Below are positions 1,202 through 44,574 of a stretch of 48,399 nucleotides of DNA, in pieces. Under the pieces are notes generated by a model that did no database searches, was not told where the DNA came from, and saw only the letters and a program-made list of their open reading frames with translations. The translations under genes were made by a program, and so were the position numbers. This DNA is from a virus. The stretch is from positions 1 to 48,399 of IMG/VR virus record IMGVR_UViG_3300023184_007092. One strand, 5' to 3'. Numbering within the stretch: the first letter of the stretch is position 1; every line of letters begins with the position of its first letter.

Positions 1202-1206
1202 GTTCT

Positions 1207-4301: not shown

Positions 4302-4302
4302 T

Positions 4303-4989: not shown

Positions 4990-4992
4990 AAA

Positions 4993-9226: not shown

Positions 9227-9956
9227 AAATTCCAAGTTTTATAAAAAGTGTTTTACAAATTTCTAAATTAGATGTCAGTGGTCTTGGCAAATGACAATCT
9301 ATATATTCCCATGCGTTATAGTCAGTTTTTGGCCAGATTGCTTTATCTAATCTCTTAGTAGCATATTTTTCTTCTATCCATCCTCTATCTAAATGTCTGA
9401 TCCTAACATTATGTTTTTTTAATGTTTGATTATAAAAGAACTTCTGGTCTGTACCAAATCTTAAATTCTTTTTAATAAGTCTTCTGAAAAATTGTTTATG
9501 GTCTTCATCTCGAAGCTCTAATAGATCAATAAAAGATTGCGGATCGCCTGCCAGATAACACATAGGATATTGAGGATTGGTCCTGTACCACCTGTAATTT
9601 ATAACGTCAGAACTATAAGAAACTATTCCTTTGTCCTCTATTTTAGCAGCTCCCTCTTTATAATAATCTCCAGATATTGGGAGCATATCCATATCAGAAA
9701 TAATAAATGGACCATCTAAAAGCTTTGCAGCCCAAAATCTAATACATTGTGCTTGTTGTGATATTTCCCATTCAGGAATAGATTCTAAATATATTGTTCT
9801 GCCACATTCTGCCACATTATCTGGTGGCGGAGCTGAATCTATATACAAAAGAACAGGTTCTATTCCGATCTTCTGCCACATTTTTGCCACATAGGGCCAA
9901 AAATCTAGATATTCTTTATTGGAATTAGAACTGACTACTGCATACTTTAATTGCAT
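9219..9956 (-). CDS. Glycosyltransferase-like protein, paralogue of the partial gene at 1-648
   Basis: 245 residues. N-terminal KYAVVSSNSNKEYLDFWPYVAKMWQKIG resembles the partial protein at the left edge, and LDGPFIISDMDMLPISGDYY carries the DxD triad. FGTDQKFFYNQTLKKH and HLDRGWIEEKY lie where GT-A enzymes bind the acceptor. Two members of this type at opposite ends of the same cassette suggest successive sugar additions by duplicated enzymes. The start is the first gene after a 1-nt gap from the gene at 9958. Confidence 0.7.
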   Translation of the reverse strand: MQLKYAVVSSNSNKEYLDFWPYVAKMWQKIGIEPVLLYIDSAPPPDNVAECGRTIYLESIPEWEISQQAQCIRFWAAKLLDGPFIISDMDMLPISGDYYKEGAAKIEDKGIVSYSSDVINYRWYRTNPQYPMCYLAGDPQSFIDLLELRDEDHKQFFRRLIKKNLRFGTDQKFFYNQTLKKHNVRIRHLDRGWIEEKYATKRLDKAIWPKTDYNAWEYIDCHLPRPLTSNLEICKTLFIKLGIYE

Positions 9957-9957
9957 T

Positions 9958-10581
9958 CTATCTTTTTCTAATTATACCTCTAGATTCTAAATTATTTCGA
10001 TGTACGTTCCTTGATTCTTGATAATGCTCTATTACAGGACGAAGTCCCGGGTACATTGTTCTGGTGTGGTCAAAAATATAAGTGTATTCCGGAGGTAAAT
10101 TGTAATACACTAAATCCTTAAACTCCCTATGCGAGGTTTGCATATTTTTTTGTTCCCATGTCTCAGGCTTCATTCTTTCAGCAGGGACGGATTCATTTAT
10201 TTGGATCCATCTATCAACAAAGGCTTTAACCTTATCGTTGTTCTTTAGAAATATCGTACCAGATAAGGCTTCATCCTTTCTCCATCGGAAGTCTTCTGTT
10301 CTGTATGCAAGATCACAACTTAATGTATCAATAAGACTTGGGTAGTTCTTAAATACTGCGTCCACATCAACATAGAGAAGATCTAGATTTCTGTCGTTTA
10401 GACATTTCTTAATAAAATAAGCTTTGTAGTGTGTATTCTTCTCCCATGAACCCTGATCTTTAATTGGTTCTAAATAATGGGGTAATCCAAAGTCTTGAAG
10501 CGATTTTTTTAACTTCTCTGCTAAGACTTGGTAAGAAGTGTTTTCTGTGTAATATGCGATGACTAAAAATTGGGGGCTCAT
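9958..10581 (-). CDS. GT-A nucleotide-sugar transferase-like protein (paralogue 3 of 3), first gene of the cassette
   Basis: 207 residues. PIKDQGSWEKNTHYKAYFIKKCL and LDLLYVDVDAVFKNYPSLI match the two paralogues downstream, with DVD as the metal-binding motif; LAYRTEDFRWRKDEALSGTIFLKNN follows as in nucleotide-diphospho-sugar transferases. It is the most upstream gene of the 15-gene minus-strand cassette, so the cassette promoter should lie in the 160-nt divergent gap to its right. No host-type TAnnTTTG box is obvious there on the minus strand. Confidence 0.7.
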   Translation of the reverse strand: MSPQFLVIAYYTENTSYQVLAEKLKKSLQDFGLPHYLEPIKDQGSWEKNTHYKAYFIKKCLNDRNLDLLYVDVDAVFKNYPSLIDTLSCDLAYRTEDFRWRKDEALSGTIFLKNNDKVKAFVDRWIQINESVPAERMKPETWEQKNMQTSHREFKDLVYYNLPPEYTYIFDHTRTMYPGLRPVIEHYQESRNVHRNNLESRGIIRKR

Positions 10582-10741: not shown

Positions 10742-11452
10742 ATGATTAAACCCTATTGGTTTCTAGATTCTCCTATTGACGCCGAGCATAAGTACTACAT
10801 TCTTATGGACTTTCTTGTAAAAGTAAAAAACAAAATGAACAAGAAAGGATTTGAAAAAGCATATAAAGAATTATTATGCTTAAGAAAGGATCTAGAAAGT
10901 TTTGATAAAAATACCGAATTCACACAAAGAACTGTTATGAGTATGACAGATTCTGAAAAAAATACGTTTTACAACCTATTAGATAAAAATCTAGACAGTA
11001 TAGAAGAGATTACAAAAATTGTAAAAAATTCAATAGAGGTTATAGATAAATTTATAGACGAAAACAAAGATGCACAGGAAAAATATAACTCACTGGTCGA
11101 AGTTGAAAGCTATTGTCAAAGATACAATCTTTGGGACCAAGGATTTCTTATTGTAAGAAAAAAGGAGGAAAAATTTATGAAGGTGTTTAGTTGGTTTTTT
11201 TCTATGATAAAAGTAGAGGATAAAGAAAAAGTAGCTTTACTAATGACAGAAATGCTAGATCCTAGATGTGAAACAACAGCAGAAATTAAATCAATAAAGT
11301 CTTTTTTAGAAACTAATATAAAAGATTTTTCTGAAAAATTCGATTGTTTATTAATAGCAGATGTAAATAAAGGTGTAGATCTAGAAGTTGGAACTGAAAT
11401 AGGGAAGGAGAAATCTATAGAGATTATTCTACGAAATTTTAAAAATGCTTAA
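10742..11452 (+). CDS. Hypothetical coiled-coil protein
   Basis: 236 residues, not recognised. It is rich in Lys, Glu and Asp, with long predicted helices at about 20-60 and 75-130 (heptad-like EEITKIVKNSIEVIDKFIDEN) and a Trp-rich patch FMKVFSWFFSMIKV near 145-160. No signal peptide or clear transmembrane segment. It is alone on the plus strand between the glycan cassette and a minus-strand pair, and its stop overlaps the stop of the next gene by 4 nt in a convergent arrangement. It lacks the capsid-targeting-like N-terminus of its neighbours. Confidence 0.7.
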   Translation: MIKPYWFLDSPIDAEHKYYILMDFLVKVKNKMNKKGFEKAYKELLCLRKDLESFDKNTEFTQRTVMSMTDSEKNTFYNLLDKNLDSIEEITKIVKNSIEVIDKFIDENKDAQEKYNSLVEVESYCQRYNLWDQGFLIVRKKEEKFMKVFSWFFSMIKVEDKEKVALLMTEMLDPRCETTAEIKSIKSFLETNIKDFSEKFDCLLIADVNKGVDLEVGTEIGKEKSIEIILRNFKNA

Positions 11453-12006
11453 ATTATACCTTTTGCTTTTATTAGAGATTTTAGCTCCTCACTTTCCTCT
11501 TGAGTAAATTCGTATCTCTCAAATGGAAATTTAGTTGTTTCGTATATAACAACCTTTTCTTTTCCTCTTGAATCCTCTGTAACAACCTCTATTTTCGTTC
11601 CTTTTTTGTTTATATAGAAATCTGCTCCTGATCCGTCTTTCATTATTTTATTTCTTATAAACAATAAAGCACCACCAGGCATTGTTAATTCTGGTTCATA
11701 TTCACCAGCATCTATGATTCTTTCTATTTCTGGAATTATATCAGTAATAAGAGAAAATGGCTTATCTCCTAATTCATCTATTTTAGATATTCCTATATTT
11801 TGTACAAGGAAAGAAGTAATTTCATTTTTAAGCTCTGGCTTTTCAACAAAAATAGATTCTAAGTCAGAAACAAAGCTTTTACTTGTGTATCCGTATCTAG
11901 GATCATTAGAAGTATATTTAAAGGGAATTTTATAGGAAATACCCATGTTTCCTGCAGCAGAGCTTTCGTTTACTACGAAATCATTAAAGCTTCTAATATT
12001 TTTCAT
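11449..12006 (-). CDS. Hypothetical protein with capsid-targeting-like N-terminus
   Basis: 185 residues beginning MKNIRSFNDFVVNESSAAG. The segment SFNDFVVNE|S resembles the T4 internal-protein leader YQEFIAE|A, which is cut by the prohead protease after Glu; here the cut would follow E14. The rest (ISYKIPFKYTSNDPRYGY, then an acid/basic C-terminal part with TMPGGALLFIRNK) is not recognised. It is coupled by a 4-nt overlap to the gene at 12003-12413. I infer that it is a head-packaged or prohead protein. Confidence 0.65.
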   Translation of the reverse strand: MKNIRSFNDFVVNESSAAGNMGISYKIPFKYTSNDPRYGYTSKSFVSDLESIFVEKPELKNEITSFLVQNIGISKIDELGDKPFSLITDIIPEIERIIDAGEYEPELTMPGGALLFIRNKIMKDGSGADFYINKKGTKIEVVTEDSRGKEKVVIYETTKFPFERYEFTQEESEELKSLIKAKGII

Positions 12007-12474: not shown

Positions 12475-13185
12475 ATGATATACAGATACTCACAATTTGT
12501 TAATGAGTCAAACAATACTCCAGTAAAATCGAATAGAACTGAAGTAGTATCTCTTCTTGAGAATGAATACTTAAGAATGAAAGAAGAAGGTTTAGCAGAA
12601 AATGAAATTAATGAAAACATTTTTTCGTCACTTCTAGGATCTTTAGGAGGGGGTTTTACTGATACCTTTAAAGATTATATAATCGATTGGGCAGCAGAAA
12701 AACTTGGAATTGAGCCTTATGACGAGCAAGGACAAACTACCTTTTTCTACCAACTAATAAGAAACGTTATCGAAGGCGTTAGTATCACAGAGCTAGGAAG
12801 CTATTTTGGTAAAGGATCTTGTAAAAATTGGGCAAGAGCAATAGTAGAAGGATTAAGTGAAACACTTCAAGAAAGAGGTATAGAATATTTATTACCTAAG
12901 CTTGGTCTTAGAATGGATATGAATACAGGATTAGGTGGTACAATTTCAGCAGGATTAAGAGAAGCTTTAACTAATGCAATAAACAACACAAACTTCATGA
13001 ACAACGTTGAAAAAATGATTGGTGATAAAATTTGTGGTTTTAGTATTGGTGATGTTTTATCTGGTAAAATCTCACAAGGAGACAAACAAAAATTATCAGG
13101 AGAAATAGAAAAAGCAGAAACAAGAGATCCTAATATCTTTGCAAAAGCAATGAAATCTGGATTATCTAATATTCTTCAGTTCTAA
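12475..13185 (+). CDS. Probable head-internal protein with capsid-targeting-like leader
   Basis: 236 residues starting MIYRYSQFVNESNNTP. YSQFVNE|S aligns residue for residue with the T4 internal-protein leader YQEFIAE|A, so I expect cleavage after E11. After a charged linker with a predicted helix (VVSLLENEYLRMKEEGLAE) there is a glycine-rich amphipathic region (FSSLLGSLGGGFTDTFKDYIIDWAAEKLG) and further helical segments up to the C-terminus. Function not recognised. It is the first of four plus-strand genes that may be one late operon. Confidence 0.7.
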   Translation: MIYRYSQFVNESNNTPVKSNRTEVVSLLENEYLRMKEEGLAENEINENIFSSLLGSLGGGFTDTFKDYIIDWAAEKLGIEPYDEQGQTTFFYQLIRNVIEGVSITELGSYFGKGSCKNWARAIVEGLSETLQERGIEYLLPKLGLRMDMNTGLGGTISAGLREALTNAINNTNFMNNVEKMIGDKICGFSIGDVLSGKISQGDKQKLSGEIEKAETRDPNIFAKAMKSGLSNILQF

Positions 13186-13463: not shown

Positions 13464-14081
13464 ATGGAAAAAAAGATATTATCATTCGAGGAGTTTAGCT
13501 CTAGAAAATCTCAACAAATACCAGAAGATAAAGAATTCTGGAAAGATATGGAAGTAGAAGAGGAAGAAGAAACTGAGGACGAGGAAGAAACTGAGGACGA
13601 GGACGAGGAGGAAAAGACTGTATCTAAAAAAGAATCTGAAGAAGAAACTGAAGAAGAATCTGAGGACGAAGAAGAATCTGAAGAAGAAACTGAGGACGAG
13701 GAAGAATCTGAAGAAGAAACTGAGGACGAAGAAGAATCTGAGGACGAAGAAGAATCTGAGGACGAAGAAGAATCTGAGGACGAAGAAGAATCTGAGGAAG
13801 AATCTGAGGAAGAATCTGAGGAAGAATCTGAGGATGAGGAAGAAACTGGGGAAGAATCCGAGGACGAGGAAGAAACTGAAGAAGAAGATGACGAGGAAGA
13901 ATCTGAAGAAAACGTTTACCTGGATGTTCCTGCAGATAACGGTGATACAGAGAATCAGGAAGAGGATGATGATAAAGAAGCTGAAGACGACGATGTCGAA
14001 GATGAGGATGAATCTGATTTAGAGGACGAAAAAACTGAAGAAACCCAAAGAGTTATAAGATTTGATAATTTTTTTAACTAA
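13464..14081 (+). CDS. Highly acidic Glu/Asp/Ser/Thr repeat protein, possible prohead core protein
   Basis: 205 residues. The start MEKKILSFEEFSSRKSQ carries the leader-like ILSFEEF motif. Residues about 29-150 are almost entirely E, D, S and T in a short repeat (variants of EESEDE and EEETEDE), and the end is VIRFDNFFN. Such extreme acidity recalls T4 gp67 (Pip), a prohead core protein with an acidic C-terminal half, so a role in the head core is the best guess. Alternatives are a substrate of the neighbouring RimK-type ligase or a DNA mimic. It ends before a strong terminator. Confidence 0.75.
   Translation: MEKKILSFEEFSSRKSQQIPEDKEFWKDMEVEEEEETEDEEETEDEDEEEKTVSKKESEEETEEESEDEEESEEETEDEEESEEETEDEEESEDEEESEDEEESEDEEESEEESEEESEEESEDEEETGEESEDEEETEEEDDEEESEENVYLDVPADNGDTENQEEDDDKEAEDDDVEDEDESDLEDEKTEETQRVIRFDNFFN
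13555..13900 (+). repeat. Degenerate 15-nt tandem repeat within the acidic gene
   Basis: Units like GAAGAATCTGAGGAC and GAAGAAACTGAGGAC recur many times, with nearly identical adjacent copies from about 13730 to 13860. The in-frame unit codes E-E-S/T-E-D. Tandem identity at the DNA level points to recent expansion by slippage or recombination, so copy number probably varies between isolates. Confidence 0.85.
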
Positions 14082-22131: not shown

Positions 22132-23844
22132 TTAGATAATAGAAGTAGCAGTTCCAGTGTTAACGTGGAATGTGAAATACATTGTTTCTGGTAAGTGACC
22201 AGCCTCAACTAAAGAGTAACGAGATTTAACCGCGATCTTAGGAGACATAGTACCTTCAGAGATAGTCTGAATTGATTCAGCCATCATGTAAGGCATGAAT
22301 TTCATACCTGGCTCATCATCAGCACCTTTTCTACCAACTAATACTCTAGTGTCACCGAATGACATGTTTTGATCAACATATACTGTCATACCTGCAAGTG
22401 AACCTACTGGGTATAAAGTACCGTTGTTTTGAGTAAGAGTGTTAGTGAACGGAGCGAATGTGAACTGACTGATGTCTTGTAAAGCAGACGCAAGTTGAGA
22501 GTTTGTAACGATGAAGTTAGCAGGACCTCTACGACCTCTGTTAGCAACTACGTTAGCAGCAGCTAAGATACGGCTGTAAAGTCTTCTTTGAACTGTTGAT
22601 AAGTTCTCGAAAGTACCTGAAACTGGACCAGCAACTGAACCTGGTGCAGCATTACCTAAACTAGAACCAGCCTTACCGATGTAAGAAGGAACTGAATAAC
22701 CAGCAGCAGCACCGTTGATTACTAAGTTAAGGTTAAGGTTAGTGCTTTCAGTTGCTAAGAACTGAGAGTGGTTTGACCAACCAAGAGCAAAACCTCTTGA
22801 AAGAATGTGCTTGTTAATAGCTTGAGAAACCTCGTTAACAAGTGCGTTCTCGATCATAGAGATTACGTCGATACCGAATTGCTTGTTAAGATCTTGGATT
22901 TGCTCAGTAGTAACAGAAGCAGCCACTTGGAAAGTACCAGCCTCTACGAACTTAGTGAAAGTAGATAAACCAAGAGACTTGTAATAAGTTGTCTCAGCTG
23001 TACCTCTGTTCATTGGGTCGTAGTTTTGTGTACCGTCTACGTATGGACCTTGCCATGTGTTGTTGTTAGTTAAACCAGCACCAGAGAAACCTTGAATGTG
23101 ATCTTCTAACGTTTTAACTAATACAGCAGCACCACCAGAATAAGCAACAACTGCACCTGATGTGTTAGTTGCACGAATTTCTGAGTTTGCTGTAACAGCT
23201 TGAGAAACAGATTTACCTGTAGTCATTAACGTGATACGGAAGATAGGGAAACCATCGATACGTGAGTAACCAACGAATAAACCAGTAGCAACAGCAGAAG
23301 TGTCACCAGTTACGAAAATTACGTAAGTAGCACCTACTGTTAATGCAGTAATTACTGGAGAAGCAGCTGCGATTGGAACTTTAATAACATCCGGAGTGTT
23401 AGCTGTGAAAGGAGTAGTTGTATCTGAACCACCTAATGTACCACCAGCATAAACGTAGTCTAGGTAAGATAATACCCCAGTTGGACCGCTCATTGGAATA
23501 ACAGGAACGATGTCAAAACCTACGGTTTTAGCAGCTACCTGAATAGCCAATGGAAGTAATGATGGGAATTTATCACCAGAACCGTTTAAAGAGTTGCTGT
23601 ATGAGTTACCGTAGTAAAAACCAGCAGGACCACCGTTAGTGTTACCGTAGTTACCTGGAGGGGTTACGTTACCCATACCATTTAATACTGAAAGAGAGTT
23701 ATAAGCTCCAGCAGATTCGTTTAATGAGTGGAAGTGGCAATATTTAGAAAGCCATTCTACTTTTGAACGATCAGTCATGCCGGTCTTGCCCTCAATGATT
23801 GGAGACCATGTTTCGTAGATCTCGTTTTGATTTAAGAGTTGCAT
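22132..23844 (-). CDS. Major capsid protein, T4 gp23-like
   Basis: 570 residues (T4 gp23 has 521). Conserved HK97-fold blocks include FVEAGTFQVAASVTTEQIQDLNKQFGIDV, ENALVNEVSQAINKHIL, RGRRGPANFIVTNSQL, LYPVGSLAGMTVYVDQNM, TRVLVGRKGADDEPGMKFMPYM and SPKIAVKSRYSLVEAG. SLNE43|S44 matches the prohead protease site, so the mature protein would start near residue 44. Its bases are visibly richer in G and C and its codons look more selected than those of the neighbours, as expected for the most abundant protein. Downstream of the protease-scaffold gene by 11 nt. Confidence 0.95.
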   Translation of the reverse strand: MQLLNQNEIYETWSPIIEGKTGMTDRSKVEWLSKYCHFHSLNESAGAYNSLSVLNGMGNVTPPGNYGNTNGGPAGFYYGNSYSNSLNGSGDKFPSLLPLAIQVAAKTVGFDIVPVIPMSGPTGVLSYLDYVYAGGTLGGSDTTTPFTANTPDVIKVPIAAASPVITALTVGATYVIFVTGDTSAVATGLFVGYSRIDGFPIFRITLMTTGKSVSQAVTANSEIRATNTSGAVVAYSGGAAVLVKTLEDHIQGFSGAGLTNNNTWQGPYVDGTQNYDPMNRGTAETTYYKSLGLSTFTKFVEAGTFQVAASVTTEQIQDLNKQFGIDVISMIENALVNEVSQAINKHILSRGFALGWSNHSQFLATESTNLNLNLVINGAAAGYSVPSYIGKAGSSLGNAAPGSVAGPVSGTFENLSTVQRRLYSRILAAANVVANRGRRGPANFIVTNSQLASALQDISQFTFAPFTNTLTQNNGTLYPVGSLAGMTVYVDQNMSFGDTRVLVGRKGADDEPGMKFMPYMMAESIQTISEGTMSPKIAVKSRYSLVEAGHLPETMYFTFHVNTGTATSII

Positions 23845-23855
23845 TGTTTTAGATT

Positions 23856-25916
23856 TTATTTTTTAAATCTTTTGTCCAATTCTGCTGCGATGTTTTGAAG
23901 ATAGCTATTGCTAACTCCTGTTTTAACAGCATTATTTGGAACTTGATGGGATTCGTTTAATTGTTCTAGATTAGCAGCAGGAGCTGAAAAGCCAGGACGT
24001 GTTTTCCAGAAATTGTTAATCTGATAAGGAGTGTCTAATTTGTAGAATTTACTCTGAGCAACAATTGATGCTTTTTGTGATTCGTTTAGACCTTCCCATG
24101 CAGATACCAATTCTTTCGGCATCATGTCAAGGAATTTCTCGCCTGAGTTAACTTGTTCAGTTAAAGCAGATCCCATTATTTGAACTACGTCCATACCTGA
24201 ATTATAGTTCTGCTCGTTAAGAGCTTTTACGACCTTTTGTTTTTCGGCCTCGTTCAAAGAAATAAATCCTTTTTTAGTGTTGTCATCGACAAGTTTTAAG
24301 AAGGAGTATTTATTTTCGTTAATAATTTCGTCAGTTTTATTCTTGTTAAGATTTTCAATCAATTGATCAACTTTACCCGAAAGTGAGTTGTAATCTCCAG
24401 AGAATCCTGAAGTTCTTTTACCAGTCTTAATTGACTCGTTAACTTCTTTTCCTAAATCAGATTTAGGTGAACCACCTCTGTTAATTGATTCTGCAAGATA
24501 TTGTGTATATTCAATTCCAGATTTAACTTTTTCTGAGATATAATCTGAGTAATTAATGTTACCGTTTAATTTTTCTCCTAGATAATCAGAGTAAGAAATA
24601 CTCTTATCTAGATTTTCTGCTAAGTAATCAGCATAAGAAATGTTTCTGTCTAAGTTCTCAGCTAGATATTCAGAGTAAGAAATATTCTTATCTAAGTTTT
24701 CAGCTAGATATTCAGAGTAAGAAATATTCTTATCTAAGTTTTCAGCTAAGTACTCAGAATAAGAAATGTTCTTGTCAACATTTTCAGCTAGATATTCAGA
24801 GTAAGAAATGTTCTTATCTAAGTTTTCAGCTAAATATTTGCTATAAGCAATATTGTTGTCAAGATTTTCGGCAATGTATTCAGAGTAAGAAATGTTACCA
24901 TCTACATGCTCAGCTAAATATTTTGCATAAGAAATAGCTTTGTCAAGATTTTCAGCTAAATATTTATTATAAGAAATAGATCCTTCTAAATTCTCAGCTA
25001 AATAATCTCCATGCTTAATAGCAGATTCTAAATTCTCAGCTAAATATTCTGAATATTTTTCGAGTCTTTGTACTCTTTCTTCTAAAGCCGAACTGTTACC
25101 AGTAGAAGCAGACGGTGAACCTTTTGACATAGATTTCATTTCATTCTTTAAAGAATCCATTTCTTTTTTAAGAATTAATGAATATTCGTTTAGTTCTTCT
25201 GCAGTGACAAAGTTATTGTCCATGTTTTTTGAATTATTTGTTGTATTTTCTTTCAAGAGTCTAGAGATTTTCTCTGTATCTTTAATTCTATATATCTGCG
25301 TGTTGGAATTTTTCCTTAGGCCAAAACTTTCATTTATGTTGGTAAGTGTAGAAATTACAGACATTTTTTGTGTATCGTTAAAAGATCCAAATCCTAAACT
25401 CTCATATAAGCTTTCTTGAACTCTTTCTAATTGAGCATTTTCAAATCCTGGATCAGCAACTAAATCATAAGTAAATATTTTTTTAATCTCTACTTGTTTA
25501 TTGTCTTTTACGTTACCAGCTGCTCTAGATGAAATAGAAATAGGAATACCAGCATCAACTAAACTCTTAGCAATTTTACCTGCTGGTGTATCTAGAAGTT
25601 TAACTTTAATTCTTACTACTCTTTTGTTATCATCGTAGTCAAGATTAGTAATAATGTGAGAAATGTTCTTCAAAGAAACATCAAACTCTTTTGGGTGATC
25701 TAATTCACCAACTAGTCTATTTTGATCAATCTTCTTTTTAAGATAATCTAAGTGTGGTAGATACTCTTTTTCTTCGTATATTCTATGATTAGAATTTTCG
25801 ACTCCAAAAACAGCTGCTACGCCTTCTAAAAAGTAATCTCCGCCTTCCTTAATTGAAGAAAGGTTCTTAGAAGATTTTTCTAATATTAATACGTAATCTA
25901 GGTTTTTTTCCATCAT
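23856..25916 (-). CDS. Prohead protease-scaffold fusion (gp21/gp22-like)
   Basis: 686 residues. N-terminal part to about 180 is a U9/S78-type prohead protease: LVGELDHPKEF gives His74, GIPISISSRAAG Ser129/130, and LVADPGFENAQLE the last conserved strand. Residues 291-472 are thirteen 14-residue repeats (YLAENLDKNISYSE type), and the C-terminus holds several INE/LNE sites (NINE|S near 196, LNE|S twice). T4 makes the protease (gp21) and the scaffold (gp22) from separate genes; here one chain seems to carry both. Self-cleavage would free the protease and degrade the core. Confidence 0.85.
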   Translation of the reverse strand: MMEKNLDYVLILEKSSKNLSSIKEGGDYFLEGVAAVFGVENSNHRIYEEKEYLPHLDYLKKKIDQNRLVGELDHPKEFDVSLKNISHIITNLDYDDNKRVVRIKVKLLDTPAGKIAKSLVDAGIPISISSRAAGNVKDNKQVEIKKIFTYDLVADPGFENAQLERVQESLYESLGFGSFNDTQKMSVISTLTNINESFGLRKNSNTQIYRIKDTEKISRLLKENTTNNSKNMDNNFVTAEELNEYSLILKKEMDSLKNEMKSMSKGSPSASTGNSSALEERVQRLEKYSEYLAENLESAIKHGDYLAENLEGSISYNKYLAENLDKAISYAKYLAEHVDGNISYSEYIAENLDNNIAYSKYLAENLDKNISYSEYLAENVDKNISYSEYLAENLDKNISYSEYLAENLDKNISYSEYLAENLDRNISYADYLAENLDKSISYSDYLGEKLNGNINYSDYISEKVKSGIEYTQYLAESINRGGSPKSDLGKEVNESIKTGKRTSGFSGDYNSLSGKVDQLIENLNKNKTDEIINENKYSFLKLVDDNTKKGFISLNEAEKQKVVKALNEQNYNSGMDVVQIMGSALTEQVNSGEKFLDMMPKELVSAWEGLNESQKASIVAQSKFYKLDTPYQINNFWKTRPGFSAPAANLEQLNESHQVPNNAVKTGVSNSYLQNIAAELDKRFKK
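24501..25046 (-). repeat. Thirteen tandem 42-nt repeats coding for YLAEN-type scaffold units
   Basis: Residues 291-472 of the fusion protein are 13 units of exactly 14 residues without gaps, consensus YLAENLDKNISYSE. The central six units are nearly identical while the outer ones have drifted (YLGEKLNGNINYSD, YISEKVKSGIEYTQ). 14 residues are two heptads, so a long continuous coiled coil or helical rod is likely. Confidence 0.95.
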
Positions 25917-25932: not shown

Positions 25933-28461
25933 TTATTCTTCTGAAGATTCTCCCCCTTCGGCTTGAGCAGATACTCCTTCAGTTATCTCTCCCATTCCTT
26001 CAGATAGCATTTCAAGATCTTCTTCTGATATATGTTTACAGTTTTCTGCTATTTTAGTTACGTTTCCTTCTAATAGCTGAACTCCATTATCACAAGCATC
26101 TTTTGCACCTTCAAAATCTATTGGACCTCCACTTGTAGGATTTTTAGTTTTAAATGACATTGGGAATCCTGGTATATCGTCCATATCTGTTACCATATCT
26201 TTAAAGAATCCTCCTGCACCTCCAGATGTAATGCTATTAATTTCTGATCCTAAGCTTCCACCGCCCATTGCGACATAATCTTTTTTAATTTTTTCCCAAA
26301 CTGATACTGCTTTACCTGATCCGTCGTCTGTATAAGTACCTCTACAAAGAATTAAAGTTGAATAGATTGCTAATAAATCTGGCGATGATACTGTTCCACC
26401 TAAGCTGTTGTATAATCCTCTAGCCATTGCTCTAACAGCTAAATTTTCAATATATCCGTTAAATACGATTATTGATACTGGATGTCTATCATCTCCTGCC
26501 CATTTAGCTACAGCCGAACCTCCAACAGCACCTGTTGCTAAGGTAATTGATCCTGCTGCAGTTGCAAGACTACCTGCTCCACCTATTGCTCCTGCTACTC
26601 CACTTGCTCCTAAAGAAGAAGCTCCTAAAAGAGTACCTCCCACTGGTACGGCAATACCAGCAGCTCCAGCAGTAACTACTAAAGCTCCAATTACTAATCC
26701 TGTTACTAAAGCTCCTTTTCCAACGTCTCCCCACCAATCTGCCCAACTTTCGTCAAAGTAAATTGTATAAGCTCCGTCGTTAACCGGTTTTAAACCTTTC
26801 CATTTAATTTCTTCGCCTCCAGTACCTCCAGTTTGGCCAGTACCTCCTGTTCCTCCAGTTGATCCTGTTCCTCCAGTTGCTCCTACACACGGTAATACTT
26901 TGCCTTGTGCAATTGAGTCTTTAATACATGAATCTTTTAATTTAACTGCTGCATAAGAAGGAGTTACAACTGAAGAAGGTTCTGTTTTTGAACCCGTATC
27001 CTGTCCTTTAAGTCTATCAAATACTTGTTCGTCTAATTTTGCAAAGCTGTATGATTCTTCTATTACTGAATAGAAATCTTCAAATGATAAAATTGGAGAG
27101 CCTTTAATTTCCTCTCTTTCTTGGATTTTGTCTTCGATTGACATTTCCCATTTTTTGCTATCTTTAATAGCTGCACCTACGATCTGACCTGTAGTAACAT
27201 CAATATCATTAGCTGTTAAAGCCATAATAGCGTGGTACATTTCTTCGGTAAGATCTGATTCTAATGATTGACCAGTATTTCCTGAAAGGTAACCCCAAAC
27301 AATATTTGCTACTGTTGCAGTACCTTTACCGTAGATTTTATCTGCTCCACCTTTCTTTGGTAGATATTCTTTAACTGATGGTATAATTTCCATCAATTTG
27401 TTTTGCATTTCACCAATCTCGTTACATTTAATATTTAACTTAACAGGGAAAGTACATGCAGATGTAGTTTTTGGAGCTGGTGTTGGTTTTTTATCGCCAC
27501 CTCCAGTTCCATTTCCTCCTGATCCTGTAGGACCAGGAATTATAATAGGTGCAACTACTGGTGGGGGTGTTAATCCACCTGCCTTTAAAATTCCATCCTT
27601 AATTCTTTCGTATTCTTTCTTTTGTCTGATAATATCATTCAAAAGGTTATCTTGTTGCCTAACGTAATCTTTTCTTTTAAATTCTCCAGATGGTGTAATA
27701 ATGTTAATTATACCTTTTCTGTCGATCATTTGTAGATCTTGAGCTTTTTTATAAAGTCCAGCTGCAACTTCAGTAAATCTTTTTACGTCTTCGTTATTTT
27801 TTAAAACTGCAACGTATTTGTCTCTGTCGATCATACCAACAAAAGCACTAGCAGCATCTAAAGATCCTTTAGATTTATTAAAAGCTTTGCCTCTAAATTC
27901 TGCATCTTCTACATCAGTTTCATCGCCTGATCTACCCTCTTTAACTATTAATCCTTGTTTAACAACTTGACCAAGTAATGAAGGGTTTGTTTTCTTCATT
28001 TGTGCTTCTCTTTCTTGAAGATCGCTCTCAAAGTTTAACAGAAGCTTAGTGATTGTATCTTTCTTAGCACTATCAAATAATTTAGGATCAGATAATGTTT
28101 GTTCTGTTCCTGCTAAAAGATCTGTAATGTATTGGATGTTTTTCTTGTAAGCATCTTTTTGAGCATTGTCCATAGCTGCTAAAGAGTCAATTACTGAAAT
28201 TAAATATTGACGGAAGGTACCAAAATTGTTAGTGCCTAACACCTTGTTTTTAATTTCCTGAAATCCTCTGACTGTTTTAATACTTTCGTTTTTCCCACTT
28301 AATAAAATGGTAAAAAATGTATTCATTGCATTTGATAGCAACGAAATTGTATCAAGAGCTTGAGTTTTCTTTTCTGCTCCTTTGTCCTCCGAAATAGAGG
28401 CCATCATGCTTTCGTAAATAGGATTTATACCTTTGTAGATGTCTTTCATGTTCTTATTCAT
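25933..28461 (-). CDS. Large virion protein with glycine-rich hydrophobic segment
   Basis: 842 residues. Visible parts: helical N-terminal third; Pro/Gly linker at 297-330; a peptidoglycan-binding-like stretch at about 345-395 (GEMQNKLMEIIPSVKEYLPKK with IYGKGTATVANIVWGYL); SPILSFEDFYSVIEES at 455-470, an internal copy of the leader motif; a GTGG-rich linker 526-549; and a Gly/Ala hydrophobic region at 582-652 that could cross or perturb membranes (LVTGLVIGALVVTAGAAGIAV). No known family. I infer an internal head protein that may help DNA entry. It overlaps the nucleotidyltransferase gene by 8 nt. Confidence 0.7.
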   Translation of the reverse strand: MNKNMKDIYKGINPIYESMMASISEDKGAEKKTQALDTISLLSNAMNTFFTILLSGKNESIKTVRGFQEIKNKVLGTNNFGTFRQYLISVIDSLAAMDNAQKDAYKKNIQYITDLLAGTEQTLSDPKLFDSAKKDTITKLLLNFESDLQEREAQMKKTNPSLLGQVVKQGLIVKEGRSGDETDVEDAEFRGKAFNKSKGSLDAASAFVGMIDRDKYVAVLKNNEDVKRFTEVAAGLYKKAQDLQMIDRKGIINIITPSGEFKRKDYVRQQDNLLNDIIRQKKEYERIKDGILKAGGLTPPPVVAPIIIPGPTGSGGNGTGGGDKKPTPAPKTTSACTFPVKLNIKCNEIGEMQNKLMEIIPSVKEYLPKKGGADKIYGKGTATVANIVWGYLSGNTGQSLESDLTEEMYHAIMALTANDIDVTTGQIVGAAIKDSKKWEMSIEDKIQEREEIKGSPILSFEDFYSVIEESYSFAKLDEQVFDRLKGQDTGSKTEPSSVVTPSYAAVKLKDSCIKDSIAQGKVLPCVGATGGTGSTGGTGGTGQTGGTGGEEIKWKGLKPVNDGAYTIYFDESWADWWGDVGKGALVTGLVIGALVVTAGAAGIAVPVGGTLLGASSLGASGVAGAIGGAGSLATAAGSITLATGAVGGSAVAKWAGDDRHPVSIIVFNGYIENLAVRAMARGLYNSLGGTVSSPDLLAIYSTLILCRGTYTDDGSGKAVSVWEKIKKDYVAMGGGSLGSEINSITSGGAGGFFKDMVTDMDDIPGFPMSFKTKNPTSGGPIDFEGAKDACDNGVQLLEGNVTKIAENCKHISEEDLEMLSEGMGEITEGVSAQAEGGESSEE

Positions 28462-29209
28462 TGTAGATATTTGTATATGCTCTAGAGATTAGCTCTATGA
28501 TCTTTTCTATATATCCTTCATTCCTCAGTTTTTTAAACACTAGATTTTCAACAGAAAACTCGCCTTCTCTAAGAAGTCCTTGTTTTCTCATATCTAATAT
28601 TTTTTTCTTGATGGATAAAGCGTGGTTGTAAATCTCAACCTCCGTTGTTGATGAAAAATCTGATGCTGTCATCATATTTTCCATTTGGTTGATATCAGAA
28701 ACTATTCCTTGGAATTTTTTATCAACGTCTCTGTAATCTATATCTGGCGGATTATAGTTAGGAATTCTAATCCATTCATTATTTAATAGTGAAAATAATC
28801 CAGAAGCTGCATGTGGTTCATTAACGTCTTGAATGTATAATTCAACGTCATGATCCCTTAAAACTATTTTGTGACGGAGATTCCATATGAATCTCATTCC
28901 GTCTACTGCTTTTTTTACTAGTTCTACGTTGCTGTCAATGTCTGCAAAATCTACAAGAACATGAACATCTAGATCAGATTTATCTGTCCAGTTATAGTTT
29001 GCTAAAGATCCTGTTAATTGGATATCTTTGATTGGTGCATTAAGTTTTAATGCCTCGTAAAAATCTTGTGCTATCTTTAATAGCTTTTCCCTAATCTGAG
29101 GGTCAAATTTTTGATCTGTCCAAAAAGATGTGTTTAATTCCTTTTTATAGAAATCATTTCTTTCTTCACCCTCTGAAAGCCATCCTGTAAAATTTAATAT
29201 ATTCTTCAA
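28454..29209 (-). CDS. Nucleotidyltransferase-fold protein with capsid-targeting-like leader
   Basis: 251 residues from a TTG start at 29209, the only start that keeps both the leader and the domain in one frame. MKNILNFTGWLSEGEE resembles the head leader with a cut at LSE13|G. LTGSLANYNWTDKSDLDVHVLVDF then gives the pol-beta superfamily motif GS (67-68) and DxD (79-81), and HDVELYIQD the third carboxylate (E123). The C-terminal part is helical. Such enzymes transfer nucleotides to RNA, protein or small molecules. A head-packed catalytic protein would be an analogue of T4 Alt. Coupled to the 842-residue gene. Confidence 0.8.
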   Translation of the reverse strand: MKNILNFTGWLSEGEERNDFYKKELNTSFWTDQKFDPQIREKLLKIAQDFYEALKLNAPIKDIQLTGSLANYNWTDKSDLDVHVLVDFADIDSNVELVKKAVDGMRFIWNLRHKIVLRDHDVELYIQDVNEPHAASGLFSLLNNEWIRIPNYNPPDIDYRDVDKKFQGIVSDINQMENMMTASDFSSTTEVEIYNHALSIKKKILDMRKQGLLREGEFSVENLVFKKLRNEGYIEKIIELISRAYTNIYNE

Positions 29210-29241
29210 ATCTGGATATTATACTGATTATATATCCAGAT
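29210..29241. promoter_or_regulatory. Promoter box within a 10-bp inverted repeat
   Basis: Arms ATCTGGATAT (29210-29219) and ATATCCAGAT (29232-29241) are perfect inverted repeats around 12 nt. The minus-strand box GATATATAA (29228-29236) overlaps the outer arm and the inner arm touches the TTG start at 29209. A regulator could bind this dyad to control the nucleotidyltransferase gene. Confidence 0.6.
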
Positions 29242-33276: not shown

Positions 33277-36200
33277 TTAATTTGTAGCCAGATCCGTCTG
33301 AATTGTTCCTGTGCTGTCTATGTAAAGAACATAAGCAGACCCTGATGTCCCCATGACGCTGGTTGCTGTCCCTGCAGTATTGTAGATATAAGTAGCAGCA
33401 GTAAGATCTGTTGATGCTGCTGAGCTACCTAATTTTTGTATTTTTGTTTCTGTCATTATCTTATTTGCTGCATAATATCCAAGGTAGCATCTATAAACAT
33501 ACGAAAGCTCACATAAGGTAATTCCAGTAAAAAGATAAGTATAAAATATATAATTTAATTTACTACCTGTGATTAATCTAGATGAAGTTGAGTATTCGAA
33601 TCCATTTATTTCTGAATATGTAACTGAAGTTAATATTGAAAAATTAGCACCTATTATTTTAGAAGAGCGTATTCCATTAGCTCCTGGATTAATAAATACC
33701 GCGGAAAGATTTTCTATTGTAACATTTTGAAAAACAGTAGGTCTTTGAATAATTGCTGCTACACTTCTTTTAAATTCTATAGAATTAATATATGTTACGG
33801 ACGTTGAAGCTAATGCTAAAGTATTCCCTATAGATCCTCCATCAAATAAAACATCTGACAAAGTGGTGGAATTTCTTGGTCCTATAATAACGTTATTAGG
33901 TATTGTGGTAGCAGCAAAAGAATTCCCTGTAAATTCATTTTTAAATGAATCATTTAATGGTCTTGGCTTAATTGATATATTTTTTACATCAATAAAATCA
34001 TCATTGGCTGTAGTTAAAAAATCTGTATAGCTTGATGTGCTTACTGAAATATTTATACTAAGTGGTGAAGTTGCAGGTCCTACTGAAGTACTATAATTAG
34101 CCGGTTGAGCAAATACATAAGATGTACTAAAGTCAATTAATTTTATCCATTTATTATTACTTCCTCCTGATGGGTCTATTGTAGATGAAGCATCTGCAAC
34201 AAGACACACATACCATCCCTTTGAAGGCGCTGCACTTCCACAAATTACTATATCACCTGCTGAATAAGAAGTACCAGAAGCCCATACAGCACTATGAGTA
34301 GTGGTATTAATCCTCCATCTTCTAAATTTAAAAGCTCTCCAGTCATAATATGCTTCAATATTATTTACCATGTCTTTTCTGTAAGTAATAACCCCAGTAA
34401 ATCCAGGAACTATTTGATTAGGTGATGATGTAGGATCGCTATAAGCAGAATCAGCATAGAAATTAGATGGTTCTGGATCCCAATAGATTAAATCCTCCGG
34501 ATATGTTTTAGAAATTACCCTCTGATCTATTGTAGTAGCACTAGTTGCTAAAACGTATATTGATTCTACTGATGCTGAACTATTAATTGTTGGGGTTAAA
34601 GCCTCAAGAATATAATGTACAGTTTTGTAATTGTTTATTTCATAAAGCGTACCACCTACTAATGATCCAGCAGAATATAGAGAATAGAATGCAGAATATG
34701 TAAGAGATACTGTTGAAATTGTTCCAGTAGCTCCAGTAGATCCTGCTGTACCCGTTGGCCCAGTTGCTCCGCTATTTCCAGTTGCTCCAGTAGGTCCAGC
34801 ATTACCTGTTGTCCCTGTAACTCCAATTCCTGTAGGTCCAGTTGGTCCAACAGGTCCTCCTGAAGGTCCAGTTTCCCCTGCTTGTCCAGCAGGTCCAGTT
34901 GGTCCCATTTGACCTGTTAAAGAAACTATCGATATTCCAGTATCGCCTAATGTAATAGTTACTGTTCCTGTTCCTGGAGATTGATAATATGCTCTAACCC
35001 ATACTTTATCTCCTGCTGTTACATCTATAATACCTGTAACAACTATAAGATCGTACGGAAGCTGAGCACCTCCTGCTACATCTTCTGATGTGAATTTACC
35101 AACAAAATTAGAAACTACAACAGGTGATGTCGTGCTTCTGTATAAATCTGTTTGTATATAACAAGAAGAATTGCTGTCTGTATTTACACCAACTTTATAG
35201 CTAATAAAATATTTTCCGCTTTGCGAGAATTGAATATAAGTACCGGTTACTCCGCTAGGCGCATAATCACCAATTGTATAAAAAGAAGAATCAATTAGGT
35301 TTGTTGTATCAAATTTTACAGGAACATTACCTCCTGATGCTAAAGTTTGACTTGTACTTGTATTAGTAAGATCTAAATAAGGCATTATTCCTGGTGCTCC
35401 CGTAGGTCCTGTAATACCAGTTGCTCCAGTAGGACCAGCTGCTCCTGTAACCCCTGCGCCTGTAGCTCCAGTAGCTCCTGGATCTCCATTATTCCCCGTT
35501 GCACCTGCTTCTCCTGTAGCACCAGTAGGTCCTAATAAAGTATAACCGGTATCATTCCAAACTCCTCCTGATTTAGTCCATACCTCTCCTGTTAATAGAT
35601 CTATATAAGAATCCCCATTTGTACCAACCCCCGAAAGAGGGGATCCTGATCCAGTGTACCATGAAGATCCATTTGGTCCGGTTCCTCCAGTAGGACCAGT
35701 AGCTCCTGTTCCTGTCGCTCCTGTCGCTCCAGTAGATCCTTTTGCTCCAGCAGTACCAGTTGCTCCAGCAGTACCAGTTGCTCCAGTAGATCCGTTGTTT
35801 CCTGCACTCCCTTTTGGTCCTTGACCTCCTTGAGGTCCAGTTGCTCCTGTTTCTCCAGTAGGTCCAATTGGTCCAGTAGCTCCTGTTCCAGTAGCTCCTG
35901 TAGATCCAGTAGGTCCTGTAACTCCAGTAGGTCCAGGAGTAGTAGATGTAGGTCCAGTTACGCCAGTTGCTCCAGTAGGTCCACCTGCAGGTCCAGTTGC
36001 TCCGGTAGCTCCTTGACCTCCAATAGATCCAAGAAAAGAAACCCATGTACCTATTCCGTCTGCTCCACCTGACATAGTACCACTTGAGGCACTTACAGGA
36101 ATTGAACCAGATATTGTTATTGTATCAGTATTTGCTGAAGCCCCTTTTCCGTCTAAAGCAATAATTGTAATGGTGTTTAAAAAGTATTCAGCGTAACAAA

Positions 36201-36816
36201 GTGGTGTTAATGAGCTAGCTATAGCATCAACTACCGCTTGAGCAGTTAAAACTGAATTATAAGTCCAGCTTGCAGTACCAGCAGTAGCTCCATTATAAAG
36301 AACTGTTAGCGATTGGCCAGTAACTCCTCCAGTAATATCAAAGGAGAAAGTTGCTTTAACTTCTCCTATTTGTAAATATCCTTGATAATCGTTACCAATA
36401 AATCTTACTTGCCCTGTTTTGCCTGGTTGTAAAGCAGGATCTGTATATGTTCTGTCTAAAATTAATCTTAATCTACCACCAGTATCTTTGTTACCTACAA
36501 TAGCATGTCTTCCAATGAAAGCATCATTTGTGGTATTAAGACCATTAGCTAAAACTTCGCCGTTAGACCCATTTAACTGAATAGATGTATTCCCTGAAAT
36601 AGGAAGTCTAATAAGATCTGCTTTTAGATTGCCTACGTTTAATTTCCCTGATGGGAAATTCATTGATTTATCTTGAATTGAAATTCCAAACGCAGTATTT
36701 AGAAGTTGTATTCCTTCATTTAACTGCGAGAAATTAGAATTGGTTACCGAATTATTGGCTCCAATCGTATTTGATGCAAGAAGTTGCTTTATTGTAATTT
36801 GGTTTAATTCCTTCAT
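33277..36816 (-). CDS. Collagen-like fiber protein with three Gly-X-Thr segments
   Basis: 1179 residues. The N-terminal 260 residues form beta-rich domains; QLNE34|G35 is an LNE|G site near the start. Collagen-like GXY segments lie at 267-383, 429-477 and 637-699, rich in GPT and GAT. Between the second and third is a C1q/TNF-like region (about 480-630: [28 protein letters not shown]). The C-terminal 480 residues are beta-rich with many Ser/Thr. This resembles the BclA exosporium fiber layout. Could be a tail fiber or a head fiber. A GATATATAA box lies 19 nt upstream. Confidence 0.88.
34720..34908 (-). repeat. Collagen-like repeat segment 3
   Basis: Residues 637-699 of the fiber protein are Gly-X-Y triplets, mostly GPT, GAT and GNA/GNS, with a single interruption (GGPV). 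This follows the C1q/TNF-like region. Confidence 0.9.
35386..35532 (-). repeat. Collagen-like repeat segment 2
   Basis: Residues 429-477 of the fiber protein are Gly-X-Y triplets ([15 protein letters not shown]), with one break at GAGVTG. Confidence 0.9.
35668..36018 (-). repeat. Collagen-like repeat segment 1
   Basis: Residues 267-383 of the fiber protein are Gly-X-Y triplets with GPT and GAT most frequent, and with GPK/GAK basic triplets in the centre. Threonine at the third position dominates, as in spore and virus collagens that carry O-linked sugars. Confidence 0.92.
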
Positions 36817-41322: not shown

Positions 41323-42975
41323 TTATATGGCGGGAGGTGTTGCTTCACCCTCAGCTGGTGGAGTTTCCTCCTCTGCTGGTGTTTCTTCTGCTGCTGGTGC
41401 TTCTTCAGCTGGTGCTTCTTCTCCTTCCGCAGGAGCTTCACCTTCACTTTTTTCTTTATATGCTTTGTTAGCCATAATATCCTCATAAGAAAGTCCACAC
41501 CATCTTTCGATAAGAAAATCCTGATTATAAAATTGTGTTTCCTCGTCGTTTACGGTTTCTTTAATCTCTCCTAATGATTTTATAAAATCTATGTGCTTAA
41601 GCAATTGTTCAATTTCTCTAGACTCACCAAATGTATTATCGCTTTCAAACTTAACACCTATTTGGCTTCTAAATTCTGAGTCGTTTTTAAGGTGCGGAAA
41701 ATCCAAACACATTTGAATCCATAATGGCTTAATAACTATCTCTTGGAATATAGATCTTAAACGAGTTATGAATTTAGAAAATCTTACTTCGTCTCTTTCA
41801 GATCCGTCTGCTGGAATTTTCCATGCTGCAGCATTACCAGATCCGAATCTTGCTGCAAATCTATTAAAAGGTATTTTTGAATCCTGTCTTAACTTATTAT
41901 AAAAATAAACAACCGAATCCATAATATTTAGATTTGGTCCTTGCCCATTAATGGTTTCTATTTTTGTTGCTTCGCCTCCGCTTTGAGGGAAAAGGTAGTT
42001 TTTATAAAATTGAAGATCTGGTCTACCATTAATTGCAAGTTCACCTGATATGGTATCTAACTTAATATCTTCCTTGTATACTGACATTAACTCTCCTAAG
42101 GTTTCTTTTGCCTTTTGTGGAGATTTACTACCAATAGGAACTGTCATTTTAATTCTATACTGTGCATTCATTACGTTCCAGATAATTCTAGAATGCTCCA
42201 TAATTTTTAGTAAGTTATAAGATCTAACTAGTCTTTCGCAATACGATGTTCTAGCAGCAGTATTTGATTTAGCATAAGAAATATAGATTACCTGAGCATC
42301 TAATAATTTTCTTTGTCTAGGCATATCCCCGTAATATTGCCACCAAATTGATTCTCTTGTTCCGTCTTCTTTTTTTTCGACACTAGGAGTTAAACTTGTC
42401 GGGTCTAATTCTTTAAATCCAACAATGTTTCTACCATCGCTAGAATAGATTATCTCAAATGCTAAGAATCCTTCTACTAATAATTGTCTAAAGTACTGCC
42501 AAGCAGTTAAACCATTAGCAAAATTGTGTAATACGTATAACTTTCTAAAGTTTGTTCTTAAGGATTTAATGACATCATCTTTTAAATCCATATTCATTGT
42601 AGCGGGATGACAGAAAAAATTCTTTTCGTCGTAAACTATACCCTCATCACATATTGTATCTAAAATGTATTCTATTTCTGCATTTAATGCAAATGTTTTT
42701 AAAAAATCTCTTCTAACTGGATAATCTTTATCGAAATAAGCAATATACTTCCTGTTTGAAGTATCCTGAGCAGCTATACTATAGATGAAATCCTCATCGT
42801 CTTGTGAGAATCCAAACCTTTCTCTCATATTAGCTTCGGAAATACCGATAGCCATAGAGTCTTGAATAACCATGTCCTTATATTCCATACCAAAAGACCC
42901 AAGTCCACTAATGGACTTTATGATCCTAGAAATATTAGGGTTAAACTTTTGTAAATTATCTACGAATCCTGCCAT
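41323..42975 (-). CDS. Portal vertex protein, gp20-like (second of two)
   Basis: 550 residues. It shares with the adjacent gene MAGF, SFGMEYKDMVIQDSMAIGI, RKYIAYFDKDYPVRRDFLK, DTICDEGIVYDEKNFF, NIVGFKELDPTSLTPSVE, QVIYISYAKS, RSYNLLKIMEHSRIIWNVMN, VPIGSKSPQKAKETLGELMS, FSKFITRLRSIFQE and IKPLWIQMCLDFPHL, all in the order of T4 gp20 (524 residues). The end is a 40-residue Glu/Ala/Pro tail not found in T4. It would form the DNA channel at the head vertex, as one of two portal chains. It lies 3 nt downstream of its paralogue. Confidence 0.92.
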   Translation of the reverse strand: MAGFVDNLQKFNPNISRIIKSISGLGSFGMEYKDMVIQDSMAIGISEANMRERFGFSQDDEDFIYSIAAQDTSNRKYIAYFDKDYPVRRDFLKTFALNAEIEYILDTICDEGIVYDEKNFFCHPATMNMDLKDDVIKSLRTNFRKLYVLHNFANGLTAWQYFRQLLVEGFLAFEIIYSSDGRNIVGFKELDPTSLTPSVEKKEDGTRESIWWQYYGDMPRQRKLLDAQVIYISYAKSNTAARTSYCERLVRSYNLLKIMEHSRIIWNVMNAQYRIKMTVPIGSKSPQKAKETLGELMSVYKEDIKLDTISGELAINGRPDLQFYKNYLFPQSGGEATKIETINGQGPNLNIMDSVVYFYNKLRQDSKIPFNRFAARFGSGNAAAWKIPADGSERDEVRFSKFITRLRSIFQEIVIKPLWIQMCLDFPHLKNDSEFRSQIGVKFESDNTFGESREIEQLLKHIDFIKSLGEIKETVNDEETQFYNQDFLIERWCGLSYEDIMANKAYKEKSEGEAPAEGEEAPAEEAPAAEETPAEEETPPAEGEATPPAI

Positions 42976-42978
42976 TTT

Positions 42979-44574
42979 TTATAATTTGAATTCTCCTCCG
43001 CCTTCAGAGCCACCTTCTGGTTTTTCACCGCTTTCTTTTTCTTCTGCTTTCTTTTCTGCAGCTTTCTTTTTAAATGATTCATTATCGCTAAAGTCTTGAG
43101 ATGACATACCAAGCCATCTAGCTAATGCAAACTTTAAATCAAAATATGGTTTTCCTTCAGCATTTTTTAGATCTATAATTTTTAATATCTGATCTTTTCT
43201 AGCTGACATAACCTCCATCTCTTTTGCTTCTTTAAACATGTTCTCTTTTACGTAGTCAAGTCCAAATTCTGACTTTATTACATAATCACCTTTTAATTGT
43301 GGATAATCTAAACAAAATTGAACCCATAAAGGTTTCATTAATATTTCTTGGTAGATTGATCTAAGTCTGTTTACGAATTTACTAAATCTTATTTCCTCTT
43401 GATCTAGTCCATCTGCTGCAAAAGATATTGCTCCTTCAGATCCTGAATCTTCTCTACCAAATCTTGATGCAGGTACTTTAGAATCTAATCTTAATTTATT
43501 TGCAAAATATTGAAGAGCTTTTGTATCCGAAAATGCTGTTGCATCCCCTGCACCAGCTAAAGGCTGTATATCAGGAGTTCCGTTAGGAGAAGAAGGCATT
43601 AAATAGTTTTTAAAGAATTGTATCTTTGGTCTTCCGTCTACTGTTAATTCCCCACTGTCAGTATTTAATCTAACATCTTCCTTATAGATTGACATAAGTT
43701 CACCTAAGGTTTGTTTTGCCTTTTGCGGGGATTTAGTACCAATAGGAACTGTCATCGCCATACGATAAGAAGAGTTCATTACGTTCCAGATAATTCTGGT
43801 GTGCTCCATAATCCTTAACAGGTTAAAAGACCTAATTAATCTTTCTATGTAGCTAATTCTTGTAGAACTTCCTCCTCCTTTTGCATAACTGATATAAATT
43901 ATCTGAGAGTCGTATAATTTTCTAGTTAATGCTGTATTGTCTGGATACTGAATCCATATATCTACGAAACTACCATCTGGTTGTTGTTCAACAGTAGGTA
44001 CTAAAGAAACAGCATCTAATTCTTTAAATCCTATAATATTTTTACCTTTTTTGTCAAAGATAATCTCAAATGCTAAGTTACCTTCAACTAAGAATTTTCT
44101 AAATAAATGCCAAGCAAGAATATCTTGATTAAATCCAAACAAGTTATAAATTTCTTTATATCTTTTTTGAGTTTTTTTAGACACCTCCTCATCAACATCA
44201 TCGTGTTGCATAAAGGAGAAATATGCCCAAAAGTTTTTTTCGTCGTAGACAATTGATTCGTCACAGATTGTATCTAGAATAAATTCGATCTCAGGATTCT
44301 GTGCAAAGCCTTGTACATAGTGTCTTTTACTTTTAAAGTCCTTATCAAAATAAGCTATGTATTGTTTTGTTGTTGTATCAGACTTTCTTAGTCCATATAA
44401 AAAAGCTTCGTCTTTAATTCCGCCTTTCTTTAAGAACTCTGCCTCAGTAACACCAACTGCTTGTGAATTTTTTACGACTAGATCGCCATAAGCCATACCA
44501 AAGCTTCCTACCTTTTTAACGCTTTCGATTATCGAGCTAAAGAATGTTTTATTTGAATCTGTAAATCCAGCCAT
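42979..44574 (-). CDS. Portal vertex protein, gp20-like (first of two)
   Basis: 531 residues. T4 gp20 pattern throughout: SFGMAYGDLVVKNS, YIAYFDKDFKSKRHYV, DTICDESIVYDEKNFW, GFKELDAVSLVPTVE, IIYISYAKGGGSSTRISYIERLIRSFNLLRIMEHTRIIWNVMN, VPIGTKSPQKAKQTLGELMS, KFVNRLRSIYQEILMKPLWVQFCLDYP. Its C-terminus ends in a Lys/Glu then Gly-rich tail. All conserved blocks are intact, so neither copy is a pseudogene. Start overlaps the upstream stop by 1 nt (TAATG). Confidence 0.92.
   Translation of the reverse strand: MAGFTDSNKTFFSSIIESVKKVGSFGMAYGDLVVKNSQAVGVTEAEFLKKGGIKDEAFLYGLRKSDTTTKQYIAYFDKDFKSKRHYVQGFAQNPEIEFILDTICDESIVYDEKNFWAYFSFMQHDDVDEEVSKKTQKRYKEIYNLFGFNQDILAWHLFRKFLVEGNLAFEIIFDKKGKNIIGFKELDAVSLVPTVEQQPDGSFVDIWIQYPDNTALTRKLYDSQIIYISYAKGGGSSTRISYIERLIRSFNLLRIMEHTRIIWNVMNSSYRMAMTVPIGTKSPQKAKQTLGELMSIYKEDVRLNTDSGELTVDGRPKIQFFKNYLMPSSPNGTPDIQPLAGAGDATAFSDTKALQYFANKLRLDSKVPASRFGREDSGSEGAISFAADGLDQEEIRFSKFVNRLRSIYQEILMKPLWVQFCLDYPQLKGDYVIKSEFGLDYVKENMFKEAKEMEVMSARKDQILKIIDLKNAEGKPYFDLKFALARWLGMSSQDFSDNESFKKKAAEKKAEEKESGEKPEGGSEGGGEFKL

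Follow-up and report, generated by a model that had tools for sequence, protein, structure and literature searches.

A candidate head-packaged nucleotidyltransferase of a large phage, with a capsid-targeting-like leader and a late promoter inside a start-region hairpin

Gene order and enzyme family at the front of the head block

The window, that is, the whole 48,399-nucleotide stretch of viral DNA analyzed here, carries a gene for a 251-residue nucleotidyltransferase (NTase) as the first gene of its head block. The gene, its neighbors and the sites discussed below are as follows.

22132-23844, minus strand: major head protein (gp23 type), with a propeptide-like N terminus ending in ...SLNE/SAG
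23856-25916, minus strand: prohead protease (Peptidase_S77) with a long scaffold-like C-terminal part (phrog_207, 1.9e-37; PF03420, 40.1 bits, cut-off 27)
24489-25055, minus strand: 13-14 tandem 14-residue repeats YSEYLAENLDKNIS within the prohead protease, each with Y-x-x-Y-[LI]-x-E
25933-28461, minus strand: 842-aa protein, family unknown, with an 8-nt overlap with the end of the NTase gene
28454-29209, minus strand: NTase gene, 251 aa, TTG start, phrog_36119
28841-28843, minus strand: E123, predicted third catalytic acid (18-sequence alignment)
28967-28975, minus strand: D79-x-D81, predicted metal-binding acidic pair (18-sequence alignment and 85 relatives)
29006-29011, minus strand: G67-S68 of the NTase motif (18-sequence alignment and 85 distinct relatives)
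29171-29209, minus strand: leader, residues 1-13 LKNILNFTGWLSE, predicted capsid-targeting propeptide with a predicted cut after Glu13
29210-29241, minus strand: hairpin enclosing the late promoter, with arms at 29232-29241 and 29210-29219, the 3' arm abutting the TTG
29229-29236, minus strand: GATATATA late promoter element, 19 nt before the TTG
45658-46014, minus strand: late sigma factor (gp55 type; phrog_234, 4.2e-17)

In near relatives the order is exonuclease, NTase, 842-aa protein, S77 prohead protease and major capsid protein, and more distant relatives retain the exonuclease-NTase-protease-capsid frame. Peptidase_S77 is the family of T4 gp21. The prohead protease of the window resembles a protease fused to a repeat scaffold. 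Its tandem YSEYLAE (YxxYLAE) repeats are kept across the clade and may serve the prohead core as sites of cleavage or docking. Elsewhere in the window, two adjacent portal-protein paralogues (41323-42975 and 42979-44574, minus strand) both belong to phrog_213, and about a dozen consecutive genes form a block at 641-10581 (minus strand).

PHROG 36119 matches the NTase over nearly its full length (E 2e-36); it is annotated as of unknown function and carries no recorded virion role, whereas we propose the member described here as head cargo. A single-sequence scan of IMG/VR recovered 23 relatives and an alignment scan at least 573, and the family extends over at least 570 viral contigs. Named relatives include the Maribacter phages Molly and Colly, the Prevotella Lak megaphages, Synechococcus phages and Caulobacter phage Cr30; others occur in uncultured phages of 634-735 kb. 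A 914-aa relative (L121:3790-6531) joins the NTase domain to PARP-like and KptA-like domains, both below Pfam cut-offs, and a 544-aa relative from a 735-kb phage (L030:11074-12708) has an N-terminal leader, MLKYNSFIKE, with the NTase at its far C terminus.

The assignment to the pol-beta NTase fold class is secure, as judged from the active site and a structure model. G67-S68, D79, D81 and E123 are invariant in an alignment of 18 family members, and GS/GG with DxD is intact in all 85 distinct relatives. The third Glu is matched automatically in 73 of the 85; by eye the remaining 12 also have it, within VE[CF]Y in 11 and VEVS in one (L123). The complete GS...DxD...E motif described in an earlier sequence-only reading of this DNA is thus borne out. 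An AlphaFold2 model has a mean pLDDT of 82, with residues 1-18 of low confidence and unstructured, and its top Foldseek neighbors in the PDB are the pol-beta NTases ANT(9), LinB, AadA and MNT (best E 7.7e-4). TM-scores to solved structures are low, so the substrate class is not readable from the fold. Against Pfam PF01909 (NTP_transf_2) the window protein scores 18.7 bits (cut-off 21), and the relatives L018, L121, L093 and L030 score above the cut-off.

SidM/DrrA, poly(A) polymerase, aminoglycoside NTase and MntA were rejected as function names, similarity being weak or below curated cut-offs: the SidM_N and MntA similarities of the window protein fall under the Pfam/NCBIfam cut-offs, and the MntA profile NF047752 gives 12.6 bits against a cut-off of 60, which places the protein outside that family. 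T4 NrdC.11, an annotated nucleotidyltransferase, was likewise discarded as a relative after BLASTP returned no similarity. The ART catalytic domain has no match in the window NTase, which places it outside the T4 Alt family.

The N-terminal leader

The N terminus of the NTase has the form F-x-x-W-[LIV]-x-E. The leader, read as LKNILNFTGWLSE/G, is genuinely coding, with codon-position differences of 121/98/235 and a pN/pS of 0.37, and the pattern of codon differences indicates that it is under motif-specific selection: across nine relatives, pN/pS is 0.15 for the four motif codons, 0.89 for the codons between them and 0.25 for K2-N6. When ten near relatives are aligned on the Glu, P9 Leu and P1 Glu are invariant, P7 is Phe or Tyr, P4 is Trp or Phe and P3 is Leu, Ile or Val, while P6, P5, P2 and P1' are free to vary. 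The aromatic, hydrophobic and Glu positions are those that matter in T4 IPIII, whose capsid-targeting sequence (CTS) is MKTYQEFIAE. Mutagenesis of that sequence assigned residues 4 and 7 mainly to targeting and residues 8 and 10 to processing (PMC9026906); counted from the cleaved bond, they are P7, P4, P3 and P1, the same four as in the NTase leader.

The strict motif [FYW]xx[FWY][LIVMF]xE occurs in the leaders of 27 of the 85 relatives, versus background rates of 1.1% in core windows and 1.7% in shuffled leaders. As a control, a strict N-terminal scan of T4 returned only IPII, IPIII and one ORF extended past its annotated start. Sensitivity of the strict form is partial, for T4 IPI and Alt both escape it. 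A relaxed pattern showed no enrichment in T4 (7 versus 4.8 expected), and N-terminus scans of that phage were therefore confined to the strict form. Sister clades retain the aromatic pair and [LIV]xE at wider spacing, with the LNE one residue further or up to about 9. In a phylogeny of the enzyme core, 51 of 84 rows have a leader form that is looser than the strict motif and has no chance rate attached. Six changes are required to explain its distribution, which takes in the head-block clades and also a clade located elsewhere. The cyanophage relatives and Caulobacter phage Cr30 carry the NTase among DNA-metabolism genes and without a clear strict leader, and therefore the NTase is not always head cargo.

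No in-frame ATG, GTG or TTG other than this TTG precedes residue 67 in the window, and the same holds up to the matching site in eight near relatives. As the lone start before the GS motif, it leaves no downstream start that would lose the leader yet keep the active site. The sequence-only reading had pointed to an LSE/G leader and had named a real start excluding it, combined with an assay showing no nucleotidyl transfer, as grounds for refutation; the leader stands, and no such start is found in these nine genomes.

Comparable leaders extend beyond the NTase. A 175-kb relative, G001, has CTS-like leaders on 17 of 214 proteins, where 5.5 would be expected. Of its late-promoter genes 8 of 28 bear one, versus 9 of 186 others (Fisher p 3e-4); its ORFs were called mechanically and these counts are approximate. 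Many ORFs of other large phages have similar MKxLKxFxxF N termini, including genes away from recognizable head genes; either the cargo set could be large, or the motif could have a broader role. Within the window, the genes at 11449-12006 (minus strand) and 12475-13185 (plus strand) have CTS-like leaders, SFNDFVVNES and YRYSQFVNES, and are candidate head cargo; a 205-aa protein with many acidic E/D-S/T repeats (13464-14081, plus strand) has a leader-like N terminus, MEKKILSFEEFSSRK.

Late promoter and start-region hairpin

GATATATA is enriched in front of ORFs, where nine of its ten copies in the window and 30 of its 42 in G001 are located. The copy at the NTase gene is at the right distance before the start, as would fit late expression of the enzyme. 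It is enclosed by a hairpin just outside the coding region (28454-29209). Folding z-scores, calculated against shuffles with the promoter held fixed, make the window hairpin the strongest among 51 GATATATA sites (-5.0), and the NTase hairpin of G001 ranks second (-3.2). A promoter-spanning hairpin with z below -2 is present in 31 of 31 syntenic relatives, and 30 of these 31 loci have a non-ATG start (GTG or TTG). Tight control by the TTG start and the adjoining dyad, as first suggested from the single sequence, is supported and extends to the 31 syntenic relatives.

The arm sequences differ between clades, and in several of these a U-run follows the stem. Among ten near relatives, four pairs have changed on both sides, a covariation score reached by 0 of 500 shuffles; these shuffles ignore relatedness, and slid pairings give a far lower score. 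The window dyad matched no canonical terminator, sister clades having the U-run form, and no Rfam family. Four sigma-70-like matches lie around the start, one overlapping the dyad, a number within the shuffle level (2.6 +/- 1.6).

Late promoters within start-region structures are familiar from T4. For gene e, the early read-through RNA hides the start and the RNA from the late promoter does not, and inhibitory structures of a related kind occur in soc, 49 and I-TevI (PMC3014915). At the NTase gene, too, the late promoter lies within the predicted start-region hairpin, and by analogy this is the known gene e/soc arrangement that silences read-through mRNA. The tail-fiber gene of the window (33277-36816, minus strand) also has a late promoter in a hairpin, there before an ATG, and likewise in G001.

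Proposed head cargo and its known counterparts

We propose that the NTase is a head cargo enzyme expressed late and at low abundance. Early mRNA that reads through from the exonuclease gene would form the hairpin over the start codon, so that no NTase is made early; sister clades would use a full U-run terminator instead. Late in infection, the gp55-type sigma factor would initiate within the hairpin, at GATATATA; the 5' arm would be lost and the weak TTG would allow a little protein to be translated. The F-x-x-W-L-x-E leader would then dock the enzyme in the prohead core, where the protease-scaffold bears the same motif in tandem, and a cut after Glu13 by the S77 protease would free the mature NTase in the head. 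At the next infection it would enter with the DNA and nucleotidylate a host target; AMP is the likeliest group to be transferred and a protein the likeliest target.

We infer the packaging, cleavage, injection, use of AMP and target of the enzyme from its features and its parallels. Two elements of T4-type CTS head cargo are present: an N-terminal [FY]xx[FW][LIV]xE leader and, in the same phage, a gp21-type (S77) prohead protease. Packaging as head cargo is likely in our judgment, and the match of the leader to the T4 tag suggests that the particle probably carries the enzyme and delivers it along with the DNA; the whole chain of packaging, injection and nucleotidyl transfer to a host target we favor with less assurance. 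Head packaging had been proposed from the single sequence, and it is well supported, though indirectly, by the selected CTS-like leader, the late promoter, the place at the front of the head block and the adjoining S77 protease. The literature yielded no virion proteomics for any leader-bearing member, none in the parts seen of the flavobacterial phage paper on the cultured relative Molly, and nothing usable on packaged or injected NTases or AMPylation.

The same packaging step could serve a different end. Rather than an agent of host takeover, the enzyme might be an injected counter-defense factor aimed at a host toxin or immune protein, which it would silence by nucleotidylation in the way that MntA AMPylates HEPN toxins. 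Weak MntA matches in 7 of 18 members and MNT-HEPN complexes among the Foldseek matches are consistent with this, and T4 IPI is an injected counter-defense protein (PMC9026906). However, every MntA-type match is far below its curated cut-off and no toxin partner was identified; we consider this version, which differs from the favored one in its target alone, rather unlikely. The NTase might instead be a cytoplasmic late enzyme whose N-terminal motif does something else, for instance bind a partner from the phage or the host. Distant relatives do lie among replication genes, and the MKxLKxFxxF termini are common in large phages, also away from head genes, but motif-specific selection, a cleavage-type Glu, protease repeats, a head-block position and a late promoter coincide here, and we judge an unpackaged enzyme improbable. 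A repair-type NTase that modifies RNA or DNA ends, like RlaP or the CCA-adding enzyme, is very unlikely whether packaged or unpackaged, for despite weak similarity to palm-domain profiles of poly(A) polymerase and the carriage of such NTases by large phages (PMC7824862), no RlaP, CCA-adding or poly(A) polymerase family is matched above its cut-off and T4 NrdC.11 is dissimilar.

If head packaging and delivery are right, nucleotidyl transfer would join ADP-ribosylation as an activity carried in T4-type heads and delivered at time zero, and the leader motif with the late promoter would provide a sequence rule for predicting cargo in uncultured large phages; the T4 CTS system offers a ready assay for such leaders. 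More speculatively, the family may comprise widespread virion-borne nucleotidylating effectors, within a larger arsenal of late-expressed, CTS-leader enzymes recruited by the YxxYLAE docking array in large, probably Bacteroidota-infecting phages, a generalization we hold only tentatively. MAG titles and some cultured relatives are the only basis on which a Bacteroidota host is suggested.

By analogy, the NTase would add an enzymatic variant to a known class, the CTS-targeted head cargo to which T4 Alt and the IPs belong. T4 Alt is a head-packaged, injected ADP-ribosyltransferase that has a cleaved propeptide and modifies the host early. The sequence-only reading had drawn this parallel, and a head-borne enzyme with a cleaved propeptide and early host modification is what we propose for the NTase. 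Alt, however, has another fold and chemistry, is also cut at its C terminus and is missed by the strict leader scan; for the leader it is the looser parallel, and the closer one is with IPII and IPIII. These share the short N-terminal tag (aromatic, aromatic, hydrophobic, x, Glu) at the same spacing, and they too are late head proteins of a gp21-type protease system. The IPs are small and to our knowledge are not enzymes, whereas the cargo here is a predicted enzyme, with mostly Trp at P4 of the leaders and a predicted cleavage.

The control region resembles T4 gene e, soc and 49 in that a helix would hide the start region in long early transcripts, and gene e in particular in placing late promoters in the 5' strand of the start-covering structure. 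It differs in its promoter (GATATATA here, TATAAATA in T4), in its TTG or GTG starts and in the U-run terminator form of its sister clades. The earlier suggestion of a new type of early effector holds only in part, as an earlier study (Iyer et al., 2017; PMC5512222) had predicted that the proteins which mobile elements transfer include pol-beta NTases. Those polyvalent-protein NTases are likewise proposed to travel with invading DNA and to modify proteins, but they are mainly minimal domains, fused to ArdC-N, from firmicute mobile elements, in contrast to the two-domain NTase described here. The elements first noted in the single sequence are all real, and their conservation goes beyond what one sequence could show.
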